DNA from: an uncultured Gammaproteobacteria bacterium
GTDB taxonomy: Bacteria; Pseudomonadota; Gammaproteobacteria; Eutrophobiales; Eutrophobiaceae
Assembly (NCBI GenBank): GCA_938084745.1
Contig: CALKEZ010000017.1
Location: 1-64,000 of the forward strand
DNA: 64,000 nt
Reading direction: 5' to 3'
Part shown: positions 6,791 through 46,909 of the stretch, piece after piece
Layout: each line of letters starts with the position of its first letter
Numbering within the stretch: position 1 is the stretch's first letter
Program-made: the position numbers and the translations under genes
The notes under the pieces: generated by a model
What the model saw: the letters and a program-made list of their open reading frames with translations, nothing else
Told to the model about the DNA's origin: nothing
Database searches by the model: none

Positions 6791-7090
6791 ATGGCAGCAC
6801 TGACAAAAGCTGAAATGGCGGAAAAATTATACGAAGAATTGGGCTTAAATAAACGTGAGGCCAAGGAGATCGTGGAAATGTTTTTCGAAGAAATTCGAAC
6901 CGCTTTAGAATCAGGTAATCAAGTCAAACTTTCCGGTTTCGGCAATTTTGATTTGAGAGACAAGAACCAACGGCCTGGACGAAACCCGAAAACGGGTGAA
7001 GAAATTCCTATTAGCGCTCGTCGCGTAGTAACTTTTCGTCCCGGTCAAAAACTAAAGGCACGAGTAGAAGCATATGCTGGAAGCGTCTAA
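6791..7090 (+). CDS. ihfA: Integration host factor, alpha subunit
   Basis: A 99-aa HU/IHF-family DNA-bending protein. It starts [20 protein letters not shown], then has [20 protein letters not shown], the beta-arm segment with the intercalating proline, and ends in [12 protein letters not shown]. Placement right after pheT is the classic position of himA/ihfA. IHF bends DNA at sigma-54 promoters among others, which matters for the promoter at 14625. Its 3' end overlaps the next gene by 17 bp. Confidence 0.96.
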
Positions 7091-8231: not shown

Positions 8232-10064
8232 ATGTGTGGAATTGTCGGTGCCGTCGCCCAGCGAGATGTTTCTCCTATCTTACTCGAGGGCTTGAAGCGG
8301 CTTGAATATCGTGGTTATGATTCTGCTGGCTTAGCCATCGTTGATAACGAGAATGTAATCCAGAGAATTCGTGTACTGGGTAAAGTTAACCAATTACAGC
8401 AAGAACATGATAACTCACCACTCAGCGGTGGAACCGGAATTGCCCACACGCGTTGGGCGACACACGGTAAACCCAGCGTAAGTAATGCTCACCCCCATAT
8501 TTGTCGTGAAAAAATCGCATTAGTCCACAATGGCATAATCGAAAATCACGAATCATTACGCCAGCAACAAAAACAAGCCGGTTTTGAATTCAAATCTGAA
8601 ACGGATACCGAGGTAGTCGTTAATGGTATTTATCAGGCATTACAGATTAACCCGGACATACTTGAAGCTGTATTTGAGACAATCACGCGGCTCGAAGGCG
8701 CTTATGCATTAGGTGTTATCAACAGTGATGATCCGAAACGATTAATTGCAGTCAGAAAGGGAAGCCCATTAGTTATCGGGATTGGTATAGGTGAGTATTT
8801 TATTGCTTCTGACGTCTTTGCATTATTACCTGTAACGCAACGCTTTATCTTTCTTGAAGAAGGTGATGTTGCTGACATAAGACGAGACAGTCTGGTTATC
8901 TATGATAAAAACCGGAAAGTAACCGAGCGGCCGATTAATGTTTCGGAACTCAGCGCAGATGTCGCGGATAAGGCGGGTTATCGGCATTACATGCTAAAAG
9001 AGATCTTCTCGCAACCTGATGCCATAGCAGAATCGTTAAAAAATCGAGTAGACGAAGACCAGGTTGTCATAAGTGAATTTGGCCAAAATGCAGAGTCTGT
9101 TTTTTCTCAGGTTAAAGCTGTCAAAATAGTTGCTTGCGGCACCAGTTATCATGCGGGTTTAATTGCCGCTGGTTGGATGGAAGAAATTGCCAATATTAGT
9201 TGTCATGTAGAAATTGCCAGTGAGTTTCGTTACCGCAAATCGGTAGTAACGGAGAGTACTTTGTTTGTCTGTATTTCCCAGTCAGGCGAGACGGCAGACA
9301 CCCTGGCTGCCTTACAAAAAGCAAAACAGGAGCCCTATATCAGCACACTTGCCATTTGTAACGTGGCTGAAAGCACGATAACCAGAGAGTCTGAACTGGT
9401 CTTTTTAACGCACGCAGGTCCTGAAATAGGGGTAGCGTCAACGAAAGCGTTCACGACGCAATTGGTGGCCTTATTTCTATTGGTTATTGCTATCGGAAGG
9501 AATAATGGGGTTTCGAAAGAGGATGAAAATATTTTTGTCAGGCAATTGGAAAGTTTACCCGGTCGCGTTAATCAATTGCTCTTACATAAAGATGAAATAG
9601 AGGCTATGGCCAAAAACTTTGCCGATAAACACCACGCACTTTTTCTCGGCCGAGGTAGTTTTCTCCCAGTAGCAATGGAAGGGGCGTTGAAATTAAAAGA
9701 GATATCCTATATCCATGCCGAAGCTTATGCCGCAGGAGAACTCAAACATGGGCCGTTGGCGCTGGTAGATAAAGATATGCCTGTTGTTGCGGTGGCACCG
9801 AATAATCATCTACTGGAAAAATTGAAGTCGAACTTACAGGAAGTACAGGCGCGTGAGGGTAAATTATTTATCTTTGCGGACAAAAACAGTGAAGTTGAAG
9901 CCTCTGACAGCGTTGTCGTCTTAAAAATCAGCACTATTTATGATTTTATGGCGCCGATACTGTACACCGTACCGCTACAGTTGCTTGCTTACTATGTGGC
10001 TGTTATTAAAGGGGCGGATATCGACCAGCCAAGGAATCTTGCTAAATCTGTCACAGTTGAGTGA
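8232..10064 (+). CDS. glmS: Glucosamine-6-phosphate synthase
   Basis: 610 aa, full length. It makes glucosamine-6-phosphate from fructose-6-phosphate and glutamine, the first step to UDP-GlcNAc for peptidoglycan and LPS. The N-terminal nucleophile glutaminase domain starts MCGIVGAVAQRD (Cys2 nucleophile) and has RLEYRGYDSAGLA and HTRWATHGKPS. Two SIS sugar-isomerase domains follow (CGTSYHAGL, SQSGETADTLAAL, AEAYAAGELKHGPLALV), and the C-terminus is NLAKSVTVE as usual. I saw no glmS ribozyme in the 22-bp gap, as expected for a proteobacterium. Confidence 0.97.
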   Translation: MCGIVGAVAQRDVSPILLEGLKRLEYRGYDSAGLAIVDNENVIQRIRVLGKVNQLQQEHDNSPLSGGTGIAHTRWATHGKPSVSNAHPHICREKIALVHNGIIENHESLRQQQKQAGFEFKSETDTEVVVNGIYQALQINPDILEAVFETITRLEGAYALGVINSDDPKRLIAVRKGSPLVIGIGIGEYFIASDVFALLPVTQRFIFLEEGDVADIRRDSLVIYDKNRKVTERPINVSELSADVADKAGYRHYMLKEIFSQPDAIAESLKNRVDEDQVVISEFGQNAESVFSQVKAVKIVACGTSYHAGLIAAGWMEEIANISCHVEIASEFRYRKSVVTESTLFVCISQSGETADTLAALQKAKQEPYISTLAICNVAESTITRESELVFLTHAGPEIGVASTKAFTTQLVALFLLVIAIGRNNGVSKEDENIFVRQLESLPGRVNQLLLHKDEIEAMAKNFADKHHALFLGRGSFLPVAMEGALKLKEISYIHAEAYAAGELKHGPLALVDKDMPVVAVAPNNHLLEKLKSNLQEVQAREGKLFIFADKNSEVEASDSVVVLKISTIYDFMAPILYTVPLQLLAYYVAVIKGADIDQPRNLAKSVTVE

Positions 10065-10110
10065 CACGGGCTTACAATCAACCTGAAAAATAGCTAATGT
10101 TTAACTGGTA

Positions 10111-10192: not shown

Positions 10193-11578
10193 ATGACAAT
10201 TAAAAAATCAGAATCCGCAATAAAAGTCTTAATCGTGGACGATGATAATGACGTCCTCAATCTTTTAGAAACGTGGTTAATTGGTGAGAAATTCAATGTC
10301 ATACGATCACTGTCGGGTATTGAGGCATTAAATCTGGTCAGCATACATGAGCCGGATCTGGTTATTACTGATCTGTACATGGAAGGCATGGATGGTATGG
10401 CCTTGTTAACTGAACTACACAATGATAATCCACTCTTGCCAGTCATTATGTTGAGTGGCCAGGCCCAGATTCCCGATGCGATTAAAGCCATGCATCTTGG
10501 AACATCGGCGTTTTTGACGAAACCAATAAATCAAACTGAATTTCTCGATACGGTCAAACGAGTCACGCCCAGTTTTATAAATAAATCATTACTCAATGAA
10601 GTTGCAAAAAATATTATTTATAAGAGTAAGGAAATGTCTGACATTATTGAAATGGCCAGTTTGGTCGCGGACAATGATGTTTCTGTCTTTATTTCAGGAC
10701 CAACCGGTTCGGGAAAAGAGGTCATCGCAAAGGCTATTCACGAAGCAAGTTCCAGGCGTAACCATCGATTCATCGCCGTAAATTGTGGCGCGATCCCGGA
10801 GCAACTGCTCGAATCAGAATTGTTTGGACATGAAAAAGGTGCTTTTACGGGAGCGAATGTAAAGCATGAAGGTTTGTTTCAGGCTGCAAATGGAGGCACT
10901 ATTCTCCTCGATGAAATAGGTGATATGCCGCTTGCACTGCAAGTAAAATTATTAAGAGTGTTACAGGATTTTGAAGTACGTCCGGTTGGCTCAACGAAAA
11001 CATATCCTATCGATGTGAGATTGATCTCTGCTACCCATAAAAATCTGGAAGAGGCTGTAGAGAAAGGCGAATTTAGACAGGATCTCTATTATCGCTTGAA
11101 AGTGGTTCCTTTAGATATTCCGACCCTTGCCAATCGGCCTGATGACATCCCGCTTTTGGCAGAGCATTTTTTGGCTAAATACGCGAAGAATAACAAGCAG
11201 GAATATAAAAAATTCTCTCCCGACGCGATGAAATATCTGGTGTCGATGTCCTGGCCCGGTAATGTCAGGCAATTAATGAACGTTATTGACCTATGCGCAA
11301 CCTTATCTAAAAACAAGACTATTCCACTTAGTCTGGTTAAAAAGGCGGTGCACGATGATCCAATACATATACAGACGCTGAAAGAAGCCAAGCAGGCATT
11401 CGAACGAGGCTATTTATTAAGCGTGTTACGTATTACACATGGTCATGTCGCTAATGCCGCCAAGGTGGCAGGGCGTAATCGTACCGAGTTCTATAAATTA
11501 TTGAACCAGTATAATATTGAACCGGCAGCATTTCGTGATAAAAAGAATCTCGAAAAAGAAGTAAATTCATTGGATTAA
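10193..11578 (+). CDS. Sigma-54-dependent response regulator (NtrC family)
   Basis: 461 aa in three parts. The receiver domain (about 1-125) has VLIVDDDND, phospho-acceptor Asp60 in ITDLYMEGMDG and FLTKPIN. The AAA+ sigma-54 interaction domain (about 140-370) has GPTGSGKEVIAKAIHEAS, the sigma-54 loop GAFTGA intact, Walker B GGTILLDEIGDMP and YYRLKVVPL. A C-terminal Fis-type helix-turn-helix (AAKVAGRNRTEFYKLL) completes it. It should drive open-complex formation at sigma-54 promoters when phosphorylated. The HPt gene starts 3 bp after its stop. Pairing with an HPt protein and hybrid kinase is unusual for this family. A possible target promoter is at 14625. Confidence 0.94.
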   Translation: MTIKKSESAIKVLIVDDDNDVLNLLETWLIGEKFNVIRSLSGIEALNLVSIHEPDLVITDLYMEGMDGMALLTELHNDNPLLPVIMLSGQAQIPDAIKAMHLGTSAFLTKPINQTEFLDTVKRVTPSFINKSLLNEVAKNIIYKSKEMSDIIEMASLVADNDVSVFISGPTGSGKEVIAKAIHEASSRRNHRFIAVNCGAIPEQLLESELFGHEKGAFTGANVKHEGLFQAANGGTILLDEIGDMPLALQVKLLRVLQDFEVRPVGSTKTYPIDVRLISATHKNLEEAVEKGEFRQDLYYRLKVVPLDIPTLANRPDDIPLLAEHFLAKYAKNNKQEYKKFSPDAMKYLVSMSWPGNVRQLMNVIDLCATLSKNKTIPLSLVKKAVHDDPIHIQTLKEAKQAFERGYLLSVLRITHGHVANAAKVAGRNRTEFYKLLNQYNIEPAAFRDKKNLEKEVNSLD

Positions 11579-11581
11579 ATT

Positions 11582-11887
11582 ATGTCAGACCAAAAAATTA
11601 TTATTCAGGTTGACCCTGATTTGGAAGACCTGATACCCGGGTTTCTCGAAAATAGAACAATAGATTTAGATAAATTGCGCACTCACCTTGAGCTTAATGA
11701 TTTCACTAATGTGCAATCAATAGGCCATAGCCTTAAAGGTGTTGGTGGCGGATATGGCTTCATGCTTATGTCTGAATTGGGTGCGGAGATTGAGTCTGCA
11801 GCAAAAGTAAAAGATGCTAACAAAATACGCGAAAAAATAGATCAGCTTGACGATTATCTGCAACGAATAGAAATTGAATATGCCTAA
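11582..11887 (+). CDS. Stand-alone HPt phosphotransfer protein
   Basis: 101 aa forming a single histidine phosphotransfer domain. His49 sits in QSIGHSLKGVGGGYGF, matching the HxLKG...GF signature, and predicted helices flank it. It would relay phosphate between the receiver of the hybrid kinase encoded 17 bp downstream and the receiver of the sigma-54 activator encoded 3 bp upstream. No other domain is present. Cytoplasmic. Confidence 0.92.
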   Translation: MSDQKIIIQVDPDLEDLIPGFLENRTIDLDKLRTHLELNDFTNVQSIGHSLKGVGGGYGFMLMSELGAEIESAAKVKDANKIREKIDQLDDYLQRIEIEYA

Positions 11888-11904: not shown

Positions 11905-14439
11905 TTGAAAAAAGATGATGATCTGCCTATCTCAAACCGTTTTACCTATGTAATAACGTTCTTACTGGGGCTTGCGTTCAGTATTACACTGATGCAAAGC
12001 GCCTGGAAAACCGGTATCGAGCGTAAGCAAAAAGATTTCCATTTTGAAATTCTGTCAATTCAGCAAGCCGTGGCCAGTAACGTTCTTACCGGTAATGATG
12101 TAACTAATAATGTCGCCGCTTTCATCTCATCAAATGATGATGTTTTATCAAATCAATTTGATACATTTACCAAAGATGTTCTGGCTCGATACAAGCACAT
12201 TGAGGCAATTAATTATTATTCATTCACAGGGGATGATTGGGTTAATGAATTCCGCTTAGTTTATGAATCGGCGCGAAACAGTAACAGAATTAAAATAAAT
12301 GACGATATCTATAGCGATCCTAAGTATATAGATGCTGTTGATACAGCAATTGTGACAGGTTCTGTTGTGCCCGCACCACCCGATATAGAGACGGATCCGG
12401 ATAGAAAGTATTGGTTATTTAAGGCAATTTATAGTCAGGGCAGTCCACTGTCCGTGAAGAAAAAACATTATGCGGGCATAGTCAAAGGTATGGTTTCTGT
12501 ATTGGTATCCCCTACCAAGTTATTGGGTGATATGGGTGCCAATAGTAGCTTAACTATCACCATGTTTAGCGATACCTCCAATCTATATGGGCGCCAATTA
12601 CTCTATTTTAATGATCCTGAACAGGACGATGCCAACAAGTTTTGGAAAGTAGAAACGCTGACTGAGGAAAAACTTATTCAGCTTCCACCATATTCAATCA
12701 AGATAATCATTGAGAAGGATCTTTATTTTTCAGATCTTGAACATCATTTATTACTAGTGTCGTTGCTGATTAGTGTCGGTATCCTGATGATGTTGTTTGG
12801 TTTGGTGCGCGCCAGAATCAAACAGGAAGAAGAGTTAAAAATACGAAATGCTGTCATTGAACAAAAAGTTGAAGAGCAAACTTATGAATTAGCCATCGCA
12901 AGAGACAGTGCGCTGGAAGCCGTACGAATGAAATCTGAATTTCTTGCCAGCATGAGTCACGAAATAAGGACGCCATTAAATGCGATTATAGGCATGAGTG
13001 ATTTGATGTCTGAAACACAGCTTTCAAGTGAACAGAGTCGTTATGTCAATGTATTTCGAAAGGCCGGTGATGCGCTTTTAAGTCTGGTTAATGACATACT
13101 CGATTTATCCAAGATCGAGGCTGATCAACTTTCACTCGAAGAAATCTCCTTCAATATACTCGACTTGATCGAGGAAGAAGCTGAAATCTATGCGCTAAAA
13201 GCAGCGGATAAGGATATTGAGATTATCACGCAGGTTGATACCGGCATAAATGTTTTTCGTGTTGGTGATCCAAGCAGATTAAAACAAATCATATTAAATC
13301 TAATCAGTAATGCCCTGAAGTTTACTGAACAAGGCGAGATAATCGTGTCATTAACAGCTGACACTGATAGTGAAGCAGAAGGTCAATTGTTGATTACTAT
13401 CAGTGATACAGGTATCGGCATAGCCAAAGATAAGCTGGAATCAATTTTCGTCAGTTTTACCCAGGCAGATACCTCTACCACGCGTAAGTATGGTGGTACT
13501 GGTTTAGGTTTAACGATTTCCAAAAGATTAACGGAAATGATGCAAGGTAAAATCTGGGTGGACAGTATAGAGGGGAAAGGCAGTGATTTTCATGTCAGTG
13601 TGAATCTGCCAGAATTGTCCAAGCAGTCAAAAATAAGTCAGGATTTCTTACATAAAAATATACTGATAATTGATTCTCGCATAAGCAATTGTAATTCTAT
13701 TGCCAAGCAACTGGTTGCCGCTGGTGCCAGTTGCCATCAAGCTACGAGTCTGGTTGAAGCACAAACATTACTCACGAATCAGGCCAGTATCGATGCTGTT
13801 TTAATCGACAGCCGACTGGCCTTGCTCGACAAACAAATTAATCCATGGTTAAAAGAAACTATGGGTCCTGATAACGTGGTTTTGCTTGTTAATCCTAAAG
13901 ATGCAAATGAACATTTAGCACAAGCTCAGTTAAACAAAGTTAATAACATATTGCTGAAGCCAGTTAAACGGAGTGAACTCTTTAAAGTTTTGAATAACGT
14001 AATAAATGATGCTGATGAAACAACCATTCAACTTACCAGAAAAGAATTAGAAGCAGAGGTTGTTACACCAAGACATATCTTGTTGGTTGAAGATAATCCG
14101 GATAATCGTATGCTAATAAAAGCATACCTTAAGAAAACGCCGCATACACTCGATGAAGCAGAGAATGGGGCTGTTGCAGTAGAAATGCGTAAACAGACTG
14201 ATTATGATTTAGTTTTCATGGATGTGCAGATGCCGGTGATGGACGGTCATGAAGCGACGCGCTTAATTCGTGAATGGGAAGAGAAAGAATCGAAACAGCG
14301 CACTGTTATTATTTCACTCACGGCGCATGCAATACGTGAAGAAATTGAAAAATGCCTGGCATCAGGTTGCGATTCACACTTAAGTAAACCGATTAAAAAA
14401 GCAACTTTGCTGCATACCATTAATACATTGGGTGCTTGA
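11905..14439 (+). CDS. Hybrid histidine kinase with two receiver domains
   Basis: 844 aa. It starts with TTG at 11905, supported by AAGGTG a few bases upstream. Membrane segment 1 (about 13-32), an unrecognised extracytoplasmic sensor of about 250 aa and membrane segment 2 (about 280-302) come first. A short coiled coil leads to HisKA with phospho-acceptor His352 in MSHEIRTPLNAIIGMS. The ATPase domain has NLISNALKFT, SDTGIGI and KYGGTGLGLTISKRL. Receiver 1 (about 585-700) is degenerate (LIIDSRISN, without the usual second acidic residue). Receiver 2 (about 725-842) is intact, with LLVEDNPDN, Asp773 in FMDVQMPVMDG and LSKPIKK. The architecture is BarA-like. The ligand is unknown. Confidence 0.94.
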   Translation: MKKDDDLPISNRFTYVITFLLGLAFSITLMQSAWKTGIERKQKDFHFEILSIQQAVASNVLTGNDVTNNVAAFISSNDDVLSNQFDTFTKDVLARYKHIEAINYYSFTGDDWVNEFRLVYESARNSNRIKINDDIYSDPKYIDAVDTAIVTGSVVPAPPDIETDPDRKYWLFKAIYSQGSPLSVKKKHYAGIVKGMVSVLVSPTKLLGDMGANSSLTITMFSDTSNLYGRQLLYFNDPEQDDANKFWKVETLTEEKLIQLPPYSIKIIIEKDLYFSDLEHHLLLVSLLISVGILMMLFGLVRARIKQEEELKIRNAVIEQKVEEQTYELAIARDSALEAVRMKSEFLASMSHEIRTPLNAIIGMSDLMSETQLSSEQSRYVNVFRKAGDALLSLVNDILDLSKIEADQLSLEEISFNILDLIEEEAEIYALKAADKDIEIITQVDTGINVFRVGDPSRLKQIILNLISNALKFTEQGEIIVSLTADTDSEAEGQLLITISDTGIGIAKDKLESIFVSFTQADTSTTRKYGGTGLGLTISKRLTEMMQGKIWVDSIEGKGSDFHVSVNLPELSKQSKISQDFLHKNILIIDSRISNCNSIAKQLVAAGASCHQATSLVEAQTLLTNQASIDAVLIDSRLALLDKQINPWLKETMGPDNVVLLVNPKDANEHLAQAQLNKVNNILLKPVKRSELFKVLNNVINDADETTIQLTRKELEAEVVTPRHILLVEDNPDNRMLIKAYLKKTPHTLDEAENGAVAVEMRKQTDYDLVFMDVQMPVMDGHEATRLIREWEEKESKQRTVIISLTAHAIREEIEKCLASGCDSHLSKPIKKATLLHTINTLGA

Positions 14440-14514
14440 CGCCACCTTAATAGCGTCGTAGATGAGCGACGTAATTCCTCTCTTTTTTTAAGCCCTCTGT
14501 TATATTTTCGCTAC

Positions 14515-14530
14515 AACTAAATCAATAGTT
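14515..14530 (+). promoter_or_regulatory. Dyad AACTA-N6-TAGTT, possible enhancer site
   Basis: A perfect 5-bp inverted repeat with 6-bp spacing lies about 100 bp upstream of the sigma-54 promoter candidate, a usual distance for an NtrC-type upstream activator site. A further pair of matched blocks (ATCAATA/TATTGAT and TTTAAGT/ACTTAAA, between 14521 and 14573) surrounds it. Binding by the activator encoded at 10193 is only an inference. Confidence 0.3.
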
Positions 14531-14624
14531 TAAGTAACGTAATGACCTCAAGCCATTGTTATTGATACTTAAATTCATCCATTTCCTGAAAGTAGTTCGC
14601 TCGTTTCAAGAGCTATCTTCCAAG

Positions 14625-14640
14625 TGGCATATCGCTTGCG
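14625..14640 (+). promoter_or_regulatory. Sigma-54 (-24/-12) promoter candidate
   Basis: TGGCAT-ATCGC-TTGCG matches the consensus TGGCAC-N5-TTGCA at 9 of 11 defined positions. GG and GC are exactly spaced. It lies 44 bp upstream of the membrane-protein start at 14684 and 185 bp after the gene for a hybrid kinase that is itself co-encoded with a sigma-54 activator. Confidence 0.6.
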
Positions 14641-14683
14641 TTGTTTCTTTATAATCCCTGGTTATAGAGAAGAGAGAATTGTC

Positions 14684-15121
14684 ATGCTAAACGTATTCGG
14701 TTTCAGGCTTACGCCTTTTTTTCTTTTCGTGTTAGGTATCGAATGCCTGTCTCTACTAGGGTGTTTGTACATGGGGCTTTTATTATATAAAGGCGCGTTT
14801 ACTCAGCTTGCCTACGTATCGATAGACAACATGGTTTACGCCGGATTTCTCCTGTTGATATTACTGCCGATAACCAGCCCGCGTTTTTTTTCTCTGGCAA
14901 GGATACGAAATGGCATAAAAAAAATATTGAACGAAAAGCTGGCAGGTTTGGTAACAGCGTCAATCATCATGTCAGTTTTTGTTTTCGTTAACATGGCTAA
15001 CCTGGACACAAAAACAATTTTTGTCGCAGCGTTATTAAGTGCCTGTGCCGGATTCTGTATTACGCAAGCTGGGGTGCTCAGTAAATTCTGGCGTTTACGA
15101 GTACGCCCGAATATGAATTAA
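14684..15121 (+). CDS. Small four-helix membrane protein, unknown function
   Basis: 145 aa from the ATG at 14684, which has AGAGAG-rich sequence upstream. The longer frame to 14624 would run into the sigma-54 promoter and is not preferred. About four hydrophobic helices are visible: roughly 10-35, 45-63, 88-106 and 110-128. The opening MLNVFGFRLTPFFLFVLGIE resembles the N-terminal membrane part of polyprenyl-phosphate sugar transferases of the exosortase/EPS type (TIGR03013-like), but the catalytic C-terminal domain is absent. This resemblance is from memory and weak. The gene ends 4 bp inside the convergent isochorismatase-like gene. Confidence 0.6.
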   Translation: MLNVFGFRLTPFFLFVLGIECLSLLGCLYMGLLLYKGAFTQLAYVSIDNMVYAGFLLLILLPITSPRFFSLARIRNGIKKILNEKLAGLVTASIIMSVFVFVNMANLDTKTIFVAALLSACAGFCITQAGVLSKFWRLRVRPNMN

Positions 15122-18049: not shown

Positions 18050-18099
18050 TTTCTTAATATAGTTGTAGTTAGTAATCGTATTATATAGCATGTCATCAA

Positions 18100-18168
18100 G
18101 CTAGGGGTGCCTTTATGGGCTGAGATTGACCCTTGAACCTGATCTGGTTAGTACAAGCGTAGGGAAGC
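18100..18168 (+). promoter_or_regulatory. TPP riboswitch (THI element)
   Basis: The conserved parts are all present: GGGGTGCC at the 5' stem, CTGAGA (18120-18125), AACCTGATCTGG (18136-18147), and GCGTAGGGAAG near 18157-18167. A small stem GCAAG/CTTGC follows immediately and may belong to the expression platform. There is no U-run, so control of ribosome access to thiC is more likely than termination. It shuts off thiamine synthesis when TPP is plentiful. Confidence 0.95.
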
Positions 18169-18209
18169 AAGCATCTTGCCATTGGCGCTCTATTACTATT
18201 TCTTTATAA

Positions 18210-20141: not shown

Positions 20142-21443
20142 ATGAAACTCGATAAACTTATCGAGCAGACAGCAGAGCCGGATTTGACCTCAAACCGGCT
20201 ACAAGCCCTACTCGGAGATGAACAAGCAACACGAATCATTAATTCGTTTTCAGATGATCAGAAGTCGGGATTAATCCAGATACTGGGGACATCCCGATTC
20301 TTATCCAATTTCATGCAACGCAATCCTGATGCGATCGCATTAATCGGCACACCTTACACGGCATCAACGATAAAAAAAGGCGCTGACGTCAATGAATTGC
20401 GCCTCCACAAATACCGATCCCTGTTGCAAATTACCTGGATGGATGTGTGCAACACGTGTCCTTATGAAACGGTATTAACCCGCCTGAGTCATTTGGCTGA
20501 TTCAATTCTGCAACGTGCTACTTTATTAGTCGAAAAAGAATCTAGTGCATTTGCAGCCAACGTTAGATCTGATCTGGCAGTAATGGCATTGGGCAAGTTG
20601 GGTGCTAGTGAACTGAATTATAGTTCTGATGTTGATCTGATATTTATCGTTCGTAATGCCGACGAGAAGCTACGTCATGCTATGCATGAACATTACACGC
20701 ACTACATAAGACGTTTCTGTCGTTTGCTGGAAGAGAAAACGGAGGATGGCTTTTTGTATCGCGTCGATCTGAATTTACGCCCCTGGGGAAGAAGTGCGCC
20801 TTTGGTCTTTTCTGTGGATGAAAACGAAGATTACTATCAGGCCTCAAAGGAAGCATGGGAACGTATTGCCTGGTTGCGCGGTCGTTGTGTTGCAGGGTCA
20901 GAGGAACTGGGACATGACATGCTTAGCCGTATACAACCGTTTGTGTTTCATAAAAACTTAAGTACAGACGACATAGATCGTTTTCTGAAAATAAAAAGTG
21001 ATATGGCTGAACAACGCATAAAAGAGGGCCACTGGAATGTGAAACTGGGTGAGGGCGGGATCAGGGATATTGAATTTTTTGTACATATGCTACAGATTGT
21101 CAATGGTGCACATCATCCTGAATTACGCATTACCAATACAATTGACCTGTTAGAACAATTCACAGGCTTCGGTTTTATCAATGAGGAAGAACATCAAGAA
21201 CTCAGGGACAGCTATCTTTTTTTACGCAGGCTGGAAAATCGTTTACAAATGTTTGATGAACAACAAACACACCAATTGCCAAATGACCGTACTTTGCTCG
21301 GTAAAATAGCAAAAATGATGGGTTATGCAGGCAACAGTATTGACGAAGCCTATGCTGGCTTTAGTGATGATTTGATTTTGTATCAGCACATTGCAAAAAA
21401 ATATTTTGATAAATTACTAACTGCAAACACAGCATCTGTATGA
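20142..21443 (+). CDS. glnE: GlnE N-terminal half: glutamine synthetase deadenylylase (AR) domain as a separate protein
   Basis: 433 aa, matching in length and motifs the N-terminal adenylyl-removing half of E. coli GlnE (about 440 of 946 aa). The nucleotidyltransferase site is intact: Gly151-x11-Asp163-x-Asp165 in ALGKLGASELNYSSDVDLIF, then DGFLYRVDLNLRPWG and KLGEGGIRDIEFFVHML, then the helical SYLFLRRLENRLQMFDEQQ. It ends at a TGA overlapping the ATG of the second half (ATGA at 21440-21443). It should remove AMP from glutamine synthetase under PII control. The family is normally one bifunctional protein. Confidence 0.9.
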   Translation: MKLDKLIEQTAEPDLTSNRLQALLGDEQATRIINSFSDDQKSGLIQILGTSRFLSNFMQRNPDAIALIGTPYTASTIKKGADVNELRLHKYRSLLQITWMDVCNTCPYETVLTRLSHLADSILQRATLLVEKESSAFAANVRSDLAVMALGKLGASELNYSSDVDLIFIVRNADEKLRHAMHEHYTHYIRRFCRLLEEKTEDGFLYRVDLNLRPWGRSAPLVFSVDENEDYYQASKEAWERIAWLRGRCVAGSEELGHDMLSRIQPFVFHKNLSTDDIDRFLKIKSDMAEQRIKEGHWNVKLGEGGIRDIEFFVHMLQIVNGAHHPELRITNTIDLLEQFTGFGFINEEEHQELRDSYLFLRRLENRLQMFDEQQTHQLPNDRTLLGKIAKMMGYAGNSIDEAYAGFSDDLILYQHIAKKYFDKLLTANTASV

Positions 21444-22762
21444 ACTACAGTTCAGAAATTCGTTACGCTTTATCACAAGCCTGGCATATCGATGCGGCTG
21501 AAAACAGTTTTAAACGCTGGCTGGAATTATTGCATCAGGAAAGCTGGAAGATGTCTGATGAGTCGCTGCTGCGGCTTATTGCGTTATTTGGTTCAAGTTG
21601 GTACTTCACCCGGTTTTGTTTTTACCGTGGCAATAATATTATCCCTTTATTCGATAAAGATCGTCAGAGCCTTGCTGTTGTGCAATCAAGACTGGATGAG
21701 TTTACGACTGCATTCCCCGAATCTTCTTTAGATGTAGCCATTGAACAATTAAGGCTTAATAAAAACGAATTAATGTTGTCTGTTCTCCTATTACATCTCG
21801 CGAACATTATTGACCAGGAACAGGCTGAGGCATTGCTCACACAATTGGCGGAAAAGGTCCTGATCTCTATCTACAGACTGTTTGATATTGAACAGCCTGG
21901 TGCTGTTCAGTGTGCCATCTTGGCCATGGGTCGTTTTGCCGGTAACGAAATGAACTATGGTTCTGATCTCGACTTGATTTTTATTGAGAAAATTCTAAGC
22001 TCCGGACATGAGGCAGTTACTCTAAACAAGATCAGGAAAATGTTGCGTTATATCGCAACCAACGATCCATCTGGCACTTTGTATGAAATAGATACGCGAT
22101 TAAGACCCCATGGCAGTTCAGGCGTGCTTGTCACACCATTGGATAGCTTTATACATTTTCATCAAACTGAACGAGAAGCCTGGGAACGACAAATGATGAC
22201 GCGCTGTCGAGTCATTGTTGGTGATTCAGCGTTAGCCAAACAAATTATTAATGCAATCAATATTAATATTTACAAACACCATGAAAAATCCTATCTAGCC
22301 CGGGAAATAGTAACAACACGTTTGTTAGTGCAACAGGAATTAGCCGGCGGTAGTGATAAAATTGACCTTAAGCGAGGTTATGGCGGCATTATGGATGTTG
22401 ACTTCCTGACCCATTTTTTGCAGCTCGCGTATGGCACTGAAAATCCGCAGTTAAGAATCACAAGCACACGAGCGATATTAAAAGCCTCTTCAAAACTGGG
22501 TGTGATTAATGCCAGTACAGCAGCAATGTTATTGAGCGCTTATGACTTTTATAAAAAAAGTGAGTCTGCGCTACGTGTTTTCGATATGAAATCAATCAGC
22601 AGTGTTAATAAAGACACAAAATCATTATTGCCGCTGGCACGGGCATCGGGCTTTATCGAAACTGAGCCGGAGAAGTCTGTTGCTGACTATCTTGCGAAAT
22701 TGATGGATTACCGGGAGCAAGTCAGGCAGACATTTGAATTAATTATGCACGCTGCAATTTAG
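21440..22762 (+). CDS. glnE: GlnE C-terminal half: glutamine synthetase adenylyltransferase (AT) domain as a separate protein
   Basis: 440 aa. Its own nucleotidyltransferase site is Gly164-x11-Asp176-x-Asp178 in AMGRFAGNEMNYGSDLDLIF. GTLYEIDTRLRPHGSSGVLV, EREAWERQMMTRCRV and KRGYGGIMDVDFLTHFLQL follow, matching the C-terminal adenylylating half of E. coli GlnE. The segment before the catalytic motif is about 160 aa, shorter than the region between the E. coli domains, so part of the central linker is missing. Translation is coupled through ATGA. The 3' end overlaps convergent putP by 20 bp. Confidence 0.88.
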   Translation: MNYSSEIRYALSQAWHIDAAENSFKRWLELLHQESWKMSDESLLRLIALFGSSWYFTRFCFYRGNNIIPLFDKDRQSLAVVQSRLDEFTTAFPESSLDVAIEQLRLNKNELMLSVLLLHLANIIDQEQAEALLTQLAEKVLISIYRLFDIEQPGAVQCAILAMGRFAGNEMNYGSDLDLIFIEKILSSGHEAVTLNKIRKMLRYIATNDPSGTLYEIDTRLRPHGSSGVLVTPLDSFIHFHQTEREAWERQMMTRCRVIVGDSALAKQIINAININIYKHHEKSYLAREIVTTRLLVQQELAGGSDKIDLKRGYGGIMDVDFLTHFLQLAYGTENPQLRITSTRAILKASSKLGVINASTAAMLLSAYDFYKKSESALRVFDMKSISSVNKDTKSLLPLARASGFIETEPEKSVADYLAKLMDYREQVRQTFELIMHAAI

Positions 22763-42736: not shown

Positions 42737-43398
42737 TGGCTGAACATAGTGGTATAGGCATGACATCACAACGTACACGTGATCGACTTGCCAACACGCT
42801 AGCCGATATGGGCATACAATCCGAAGTTGTCCTCGAAGCAATACGTAAAACGCCACGTCATCTTTTTGTTGATGAGGCACTTGCCAGTCGAGCGTATGAG
42901 AATACGGCATTGCCTATTGGTTTTAGCCAAACAATTTCGCAACCGTATATTGTCGCAAAAATGACGGAAGCCCTGATTAAAGACAGGGATTTAAAAAACG
43001 TTTTGGAAGTTGGTACCGGTTGTGGTTACCAGACGGTCATCATGGCGCAATTTACCAAACAAATTTACACTGTTGAACGTATCAATGGCTTATTAGTTCG
43101 TGCCCGAGCACGCTTTCAACAACTCGCGTATACCAACATTCGCAGCAAACACGCAGATGGTAATATTGGTTGGTCGGCACATGCGCCTTTTGATGGCATT
43201 ATTGTTGCTGCTGCGCCTATAGGTGTGCCTGAGGCATTATTAGAACAGCTTGCAATAGAGGGACGCCTGATTATCCCTGTTGGTAAATCGGGAGATCAAA
43301 AATTATTATTGATCACGCGTAAAGAAGATGGTTTTGTGGAAGAAATTATTGATTCGGTAAGTTTTGTGCCAATGCTTGGTGGTATTGATACGACTTGA
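42733..43398 (+). CDS. pcm: Protein-L-isoaspartate O-methyltransferase
   Basis: 221 aa, canonical Pcm. It shows [34 protein letters not shown], the SAM motif [13 protein letters not shown] and [20 protein letters not shown]. It repairs isoaspartyl damage in aged proteins. It overlaps surE by 4 bp (ATGA) and is followed by nlpD. A more divergent PCMT-like gene lies at 17390. Confidence 0.96.
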
Positions 43399-46627: not shown

Positions 46628-46906
46628 ATGGCAAAGAAGAAAGCAAAGAAGAAGACTGCGAAGAAAAAAGTCGCAAAGAAAACGGCTAAGAAAAAAGTAG
46701 CTAAGAAAAAAGTAGCGAAGAAAAAGGTAGCGAAGAAAAAGGCTACCAAGAAAAAGGCTAAGAAAAAAGTAGCGAAGAAAAAAGCAAAGAAAAAGACTGC
46801 AAAGAAAAAAGCTACCAAGAAAAAAGTAGCGAAGAAAAAAGCTACCAAGAAAAAAGCAAAGAAAAAGGCTACTAAGAAAAAAGCCAAGAAAAAAACCAAA
46901 AAAAAA
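46628..46906 (+). repeat. Low-complexity AAGAAAAAAG/GCN repeat array
   Basis: Imperfect tandem units of 12-15 bp (gcnaagaaaaaa and variants) make up the whole gene. Such arrays change length by slippage and make poly-A runs that can also slip during transcription. The phenylalanine-rich frames on the minus strand are by-products. Confidence 0.85.
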
Positions 46907-46909
46907 TAA
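46628..46909 (+). CDS. Histone H1-like, lysine-repeat DNA-binding protein
   Basis: 93 aa made almost only of K, A, T and V in 4-5-residue units (AKKKV, AKKKT, TKKKA). It resembles the AlgP/Hc2-type C-terminal tails of bacterial H1-like proteins, which bind and compact DNA without a fixed fold. A strong AGGGGAG ribosome site lies 11 bp upstream. Directly before the stop codon is a run of nine A (46898-46906), and the +1 frame stays open to 47030 (see next entry). The terminator comes only at 47067, so the transcript includes that tail. Confidence 0.85.
   Translation: MAKKKAKKKTAKKKVAKKTAKKKVAKKKVAKKKVAKKKATKKKAKKKVAKKKAKKKTAKKKATKKKVAKKKATKKKAKKKATKKKAKKKTKKK

Follow-up and report, generated by a model that had tools for sequence, protein, structure and literature searches.

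Most of what is established about GlrR (QseF) comes from enteric bacteria, in which this envelope-stress regulator feeds the GlmY/GlmZ/glmS circuit and rpoE. Two papers give the GlrR/QseF consensus as TGTC-N10-GACA (PMC8745638, PMC4987338), and a third describes TGT-N12-ACA at glmY, with three sites and help from IHF (PMC6075780). In a control scan of the DNA upstream of E. coli K-12 glmY we recovered all three sites as TGTC-N10-GACA, located between -134 and -230. Two further reports mention GlrR groups in Acidithiobacillia (PMC12194929) and a QseF-like group counted at 117 (PMC3162934). A literature search by title, in a limited collection and with limited terms, returned nothing on the two output genes described here, memb and gene B, or on a regulator of GlrR type that works with an HPt/hybrid-kinase relay.

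The locus analyzed here resembles the GlrK-QseG-GlrR system of E. coli and Salmonella (QseE-QseG-QseF; glmY and rpoE promoters) in three respects: (i) its regulator belongs to the GlrR clade and carries an identical recognition helix, (ii) a putative enhancer with the core GTC-N10-GAC is combined with a sigma-54 promoter, and (iii) there is a link to glmS, which runs through GlmY/GlmZ in E. coli and Salmonella and takes the form of gene adjacency here. The two systems differ in the kinase, which is a hybrid kinase with an HPt protein and no QseG here and GlrK with QseG in E. coli and Salmonella; in the number of enhancer sites per promoter, one here as opposed to three at E. coli glmY; and in the targets, which are predicted to be two uncharacterized protein genes instead of a small RNA and rpoE.

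Table 1. Coordinates of the features discussed in the text (window positions unless a contig is given).
Feature	Position	Strand	Remarks
Presumed glmS	8232..10064	+	next upstream of regulator
TGTC-N10-GACA, perfect GlrR consensus	10049..10066	.	spans glmS stop codon, 3' end
GlrR-type sigma-54-dependent response regulator	10193..11578	+	receiver, AAA+ with GAFTGA, C-terminal HTH
HPt phosphotransfer protein	11582..11887	+	His49 in HSLKG
Hybrid histidine kinase	11905..14439	+	HisKA (SHEIRTP), HATPase, C-terminal receiver
Conserved dyad GTCGTAGATGAGCGAC = GTC-N10-GAC, predicted enhancer (UAS)	14455..14470	.	11/11 regions
Dyad AACTA-N6-TAGTT of the preliminary description	14515..14530	.	overlaps perfect IHF consensus AATCAATAGTTTA (14520-14532)
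Partly conserved TTGTTATT block	14556..14563	.	between enhancer and promoter; from alignment
Predicted sigma-54 (-24/-12) promoter TGGCAT-ATCGC-TTGCG	14625..14640	+	GG/GC ten bases apart
Output gene 1, memb; 145-aa four-helix membrane protein	14684..15121	+	relatives at same place
Gene B, predicted unlinked second target	G000 contig C6, 227123-227416

The window, that is, the whole 64-kb stretch of DNA that was analyzed, is part of a 2.2-Mb genome (G000 in our numbering of genomes) that is 87% complete. The preliminary description had placed an activator of the matching class in the operon next to memb, and the operon indeed encodes a receiver, an AAA+ domain with GAFTGA and a C-terminal helix-turn-helix in one protein, together with the HPt protein and the hybrid kinase. 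The kinase has a putative periplasmic sensor region flanked by two hydrophobic segments, and the HPt histidine is conserved in 11 of 11 sequences. Regulator, HPt and kinase genes are present in 18 of the 19 relatives' loci fetched, G003 being the exception, and memb lies between the kinase gene and a convergent isochorismatase gene. The ORF list holds no QseG gene between regulator and kinase, and neither GlmY nor GlmZ was found within the 64-kb window. What we take to be glmS lies directly upstream of the regulator gene in the window and in all 15 relatives' loci for which the fetched stretch was long enough. GTC-N10-GAC is present at the end of glmS in 8 of the 16 loci read (G000, G010, G008, G004, G001, G005, G017, G023), and no sigma-54 site follows this dyad within the 150 bases scanned. 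In the window, the full TGTC-N10-GACA at this position is a tentative candidate for an autoregulation site, tentative because of the missing sigma-54 site and because the coding sequence is conserved in its own right.

Elsewhere in the window, an ORF about 3 kb before the regulator gene (6791-7090) reads like ihfA, which presumably encodes a subunit of the DNA-bending protein IHF. A TPP riboswitch (Rfam; 18093-18182) lies ahead of a thiC-like ORF, and two adjacent ORFs of 433 and 440 aa with a 4-base overlap (20142-22762) presumably encode the GlnE adenylyltransferase in two parts, either because the gene is truly split or because of a frameshift. A histone-like ORF at 46628-46909 consists almost entirely of KKA/KKVAKK-type repeats.

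Among the E. coli regulators compared, the window's regulator is most similar to GlrR (49.5% identity), followed by ZraR (38.6%), AtoC (38.1%) and NtrC (36.4%), and GlrR is its closest match outside its own family among 44 proteins. Conversely, the 13 best rows for GlrR are regulators of the window's family (11 distinct), the top one being that of G019 at 53.5%. A maximum-likelihood tree of 40 rows, in which there are only four E. coli regulators and for which the tool warns of long branches, groups GlrR with the 13 family rows (11 distinct) at a support of 100/100. As judged by mutual best match and by the tree, the window's regulator is a member of the GlrR clade, and its kinship with GlrR is clear. 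The nine family regulators shown have exactly the recognition helix of GlrR, AGRNRTEFYKLL, and ZraR, AtoC, NtrC and three other activators differ in this segment. An AAA+ domain with GAFTGA and a C-terminal HTH mark the regulator as an enhancer-binding protein; the GAFTGA motif is present in 10 of the 11 regulators read (GSFTGA in G004). We use the name GlrR-type and do not claim a strict equivalog, because the best NCBIfam match, PRK15115 GlrR, reaches 526 bits against a curated equivalog value of 763, and because the kinase partner differs, the operon holding an HPt protein and a hybrid kinase in place of a cognate GlrK (QseE) kinase and the QseG lipoprotein.

Upstream of memb, TGGCAT-N5-TTGCG stands at 14625-14640 with exact spacing, 44 bp before the ATG at 14684, all as originally described. 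As expected of a sigma-54 promoter, the site fits TGGCAY-N5-TTGC, its GG and GC doublets are ten bases apart, and a putative activator site lies upstream. Without mismatch, TGGCAY-N5-TTGC occurs at two sites in the 64-kb window, the other one, at 43194, being inside a coding ORF; with one mismatch allowed there are 14 matches versus 10.4 expected, so that a match alone proves little, and it is position and conservation that weigh. The pattern occurs once per region in all 11 orthologous upstream regions (G000, G010, G008, G006, G004, G001, G017, G007, G016, G005 and G019), 49-60 bases before the start codon. TGGCA and TTGCG are invariant in all 10 aligned upstream regions, an alignment with a mean column identity of 48% from which the promoter and dyad blocks stand out. 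In shuffled intergenic regions the sigma-54 pattern appeared in 0-0.3% of 2000 trials each, chances that must not be multiplied since the orthologous regions are related. Judged by these sequence comparisons, the sigma-54 promoter of memb is real. RpoN was found in 10 of the 12 genomes of the genus, the two in which it was not found being G000 (87% complete) and G008 (80% complete).

The preliminary description had proposed as enhancer a perfect dyad, AACTA-N6-TAGTT. The dyad is exact at 14515-14530, but none of the 10 other orthologous regions has it, and as enhancer candidate it is replaced by the conserved GTC-N10-GAC, 60 bp further upstream. One GTC-N10-GAC occurs in each of the 11 orthologous upstream regions, in the window within the flanks CGTCG...CGACG at 14454-14471. 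Its distance to the promoter is 156-171 bp in ten regions and 200 in G019, whose memb is 22% identical; in shuffled memb upstream regions it arose in 1-9% of 2000 trials each. The published GlrR/QseF site has the same GTC-N10-GAC core; the outer bases at the memb and gene B targets are mostly C or T ... G as compared with T ... A in the consensus. This shared core, taken together with a recognition helix identical to that of GlrR, makes the dyad a predicted enhancer for the linked regulator.

IHF recognizes WATCAA-N4-TTR. The exact IHF site in the window, AATCAATAGTTTA, was considered as a conserved element and set aside, being absent in exact form from the 10 other regions. The TTGTTATT block, in which TTG and one following T are invariant in all 10 aligned regions, contains no exact IHF consensus and is a possible bending element.

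To survey further targets, we searched 18 genomes for GTCGT-N6-RCGAC and chose 20 places among the matches. At three of these a sigma-54 site reaches the maximal score, each time before the same gene, here called gene B, which is present in 12 of 58 genomes (G000, G001, G003, G004, G005, G006, G008, G010, G016 and G017, and more weakly G019 and G026). Its product has about 97-100 residues and, in G000, no membrane helix; comparison with Pfam, NCBIfam, PHROGs and solved structures gave nothing above cut-off. GTC-N10-GAC lies upstream of gene B in all 12 genomes that have the gene, as the full TGTC-N10-GACA in G019, and TGGCRY-N5-TTGC precedes it in 10 of the 12, with TTGT in G000 and TTGA in G019. 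Dyad and promoter are 111-124 apart in ten genomes, 169 in G019 and 134 in G026; among 1000 shuffles of the gene B regions, 0.4-4% contained the dyad and at most 0.2% the promoter. Eleven genomes have memb and gene B together (memb being broken in G003 and G005), G007 has a broken memb without gene B, and G026 has gene B without memb.

Across all 12 genomes of the genus, TGGCRY-N5-TTGC combined with GTC-N10-GAC 98-158 bases apart gave 15 matches, eight at memb, six at gene B and one elsewhere (G003:C2:490057), versus two for the reversed-pattern control. The gene B promoters of G006, with a gap one base short, and of G000, with TTGT, fall outside this pattern. At a gap of 36-96 there were four matches versus one in the control, none of them at memb or gene B. 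A looser half-dyad search gave many matches, and in none of the five other places read did a full dyad accompany a sigma-54 site. Under the pattern used, the target set in the genus comprises two genes. The idea of a self-contained module with its own output gene thus needs to be revised: conservation and the match to the GlrR site lend good support to control of the sigma-54 promoter by the neighboring activator, but the module was drawn too narrowly, since the same promoter-plus-dyad precedes the unlinked gene B. Eight family genomes have the phosphorelay with memb and gene B undetected (in G014 and G020 the contigs end early), and the regulator must therefore have other or older targets there. 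As a separate observation, one pattern match recurs four times in G002, on C9 (54026, 60404, 65936) and C14 (97773), with the same leading sequence, as in a repeated element.

Based on these observations, we propose that memb is very probably a direct target of the GlrR-like regulator (10193-11578) through the dyad and the sigma-54 promoter, and gene B likewise. A signal, probably from the envelope, would be sensed by the hybrid kinase (11905-14439), and the order of domains and the conserved residues suggest that phosphate would pass from the kinase histidine to the kinase receiver, on to HPt and finally to the regulator. The phosphorylated regulator would then bind GTC-N10-GAC at 14455-14470 and, presumably with DNA bending, activate sigma-54 RNA polymerase at 14625-14639, with a transcription start expected near 14651. 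The same regulator would act on gene B through the same arrangement, so that the two small proteins would be induced together.

It is improbable that the memb promoter, while sigma-54-dependent, answers to a different activator encoded in the genome, with the linked phosphorelay as a bystander. The sigma-54-activator family, which also catches other AAA+ proteins, has 12 matches in G000, of which two were read (the regulator and L063), and G003 (85% complete) keeps an intact gene B promoter with no phosphorelay found. The dyad nevertheless equals the GlrR site in its core, and the GlrR recognition helix is found in the linked regulator and absent from the six other activators shown. In addition, in a search of 40 genomes that left out G026, the linked HPt was found in 10 of the 11 genomes having memb and gene B, G003 being the exception, and the three genus genomes in which no HPt was found (G002, G009, G011) yielded neither memb nor gene B and no promoter-plus-dyad match.

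Less probable still is that the GTC...GAC dyad forms an RNA hairpin, as a terminator or 3'-end element of the phosphorelay mRNA. Its place just after the kinase stop codon would suit this role, as would a run of seven Ts 10-11 bases later in G000 and G006 and four Ts one base later in G017, but the other seven aligned regions have no T-run directly after the dyad, the dyad is absent from the terminator-scan list, and its middle varies. Moreover, the same dyad stands before gene B, which no kinase gene precedes in G000, and its spacing to the sigma-54 site is held. Finally, a chance -24/-12 match with memb transcribed from a sigma-70 promoter is hardly credible: G000 has a perfect TATAAT at 14650-14655, one-mismatch sigma-54 matches are no commoner than chance in the window and the terminator scan gives a weak hairpin over the promoter (14621-14638), but all 11 regions retain the sigma-54 site, no sigma-70 promoter pair is called at the memb promoter and the TATAAT is not conserved in the aligned regions.

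The memb product had been described as a four-helix membrane protein, which hydropathy and a low-confidence model (pLDDT 55) support; comparison with Pfam, NCBIfam, PHROGs and the PDB gave no match above cut-off. Matches were obtained in 11 of the 58 genomes searched, the window's own included. The gene is intact in G000, G010, G008, G006, G004, G001 and G017, frameshifted in G005, interrupted by an early stop (two tandem stops) in G007, reduced to a C-terminal remnant in G003 and weakly matching (26%) in G016; a twelfth, very diverged copy (22%) was located by position in G019. Among the six intact relatives, identity to the window is 43-50% for memb and 67-91% for the regulator and HPt, so memb evolves faster. 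The gap between the kinase match and that of the next gene is 18-58 bases in G015, G023, G012, G022 and G024, leaving no room for memb; the 0.5-kb gap after the kinase in G013 holds no ORF of more than 53 residues, and in G014 and G020 too little of the contig is left beyond the kinase for memb to be sought by eye. In G003, a two-ORF transposase unit (L019, 3012-4710), which we take to be IS3-like, abuts the memb remnant, with another copy at a distance of 4.9 kb (8233-9590).

Seven of nine memb homologues, which are related sequences, give in-register matches to the N-terminal membrane part of TIGR03025, TIGR03013 or both, at E-values of 0.01 to 0.74. These are families of exopolysaccharide polyprenyl glycosylphosphotransferases (WcaJ/EpsB type), to whose N-terminal four-helix domain memb thus shows a faint colinear similarity, whereas it lacks their nucleotide-binding and catalytic domains. 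At 145 aa, with no catalytic domain and with scores of 9-15 bits where the cut-offs are 295.55 and 393.35, memb falls outside both families. Other families score similarly (dctM, 0.0076; DUF6814, 0.0047), and single E-values mean little because a reversed control reached an unrelated channel model at 0.0054; none of seven reversed sequences touched TIGR03025 or TIGR03013. Using hhalign, memb aligned with the EpsB-type protein of G015 at probabilities of 71% and 76%, the latter being the best of about 14 comparisons. Two WcaJ-like proteins gave 0.3% and 0.7%, and five other EpsB-type proteins and two WcaJ-like ones taken singly gave 0.1-0.7%, which is noise level: reversed or block-shuffled memb gave 0.1-0.6%, and 35 PutP windows at most 0.6%. 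A profile of 13 mixed N-termini, in which row L262 looks like a wrong domain and from which L257 was left out because of a faulty reading frame, gave 28%, and one of six EpsB-type proteins 18%, or 1.1% without two divergent memb rows. No TIGR03025 match was found in G000. We regard a relationship of memb to the N-terminus of polysaccharide-priming (EPS) transferases as a lead and not as an assignment.

A role of memb and gene B in adjusting the envelope or surface polysaccharide is the likeliest but a tentative reading, which we put forward with less than even confidence. A fuller version is doubtful: the GlrR system would have had its enteric small-RNA output replaced by two co-inherited proteins, memb being a free-standing transmembrane domain from an EPS-priming transferase and gene B a small helical cytosolic partner, which would jointly adjust envelope or surface-polysaccharide synthesis at the inner membrane, while the old glmS link would be kept as gene adjacency and not as GlmY/GlmZ control.

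The named members of the host Gammaproteobacteria group considered here are all metagenome-assembled. In them, a GlrR-clade regulator that is predicted to use the same DNA code and to be fed by a phosphorelay, and that lies next to glmS, appears to control two uncharacterized proteins, and the two families gain a candidate regulator and a testable shared context. The arrangement also suggests that the link between GlrR and glmS may be older than the small RNAs.
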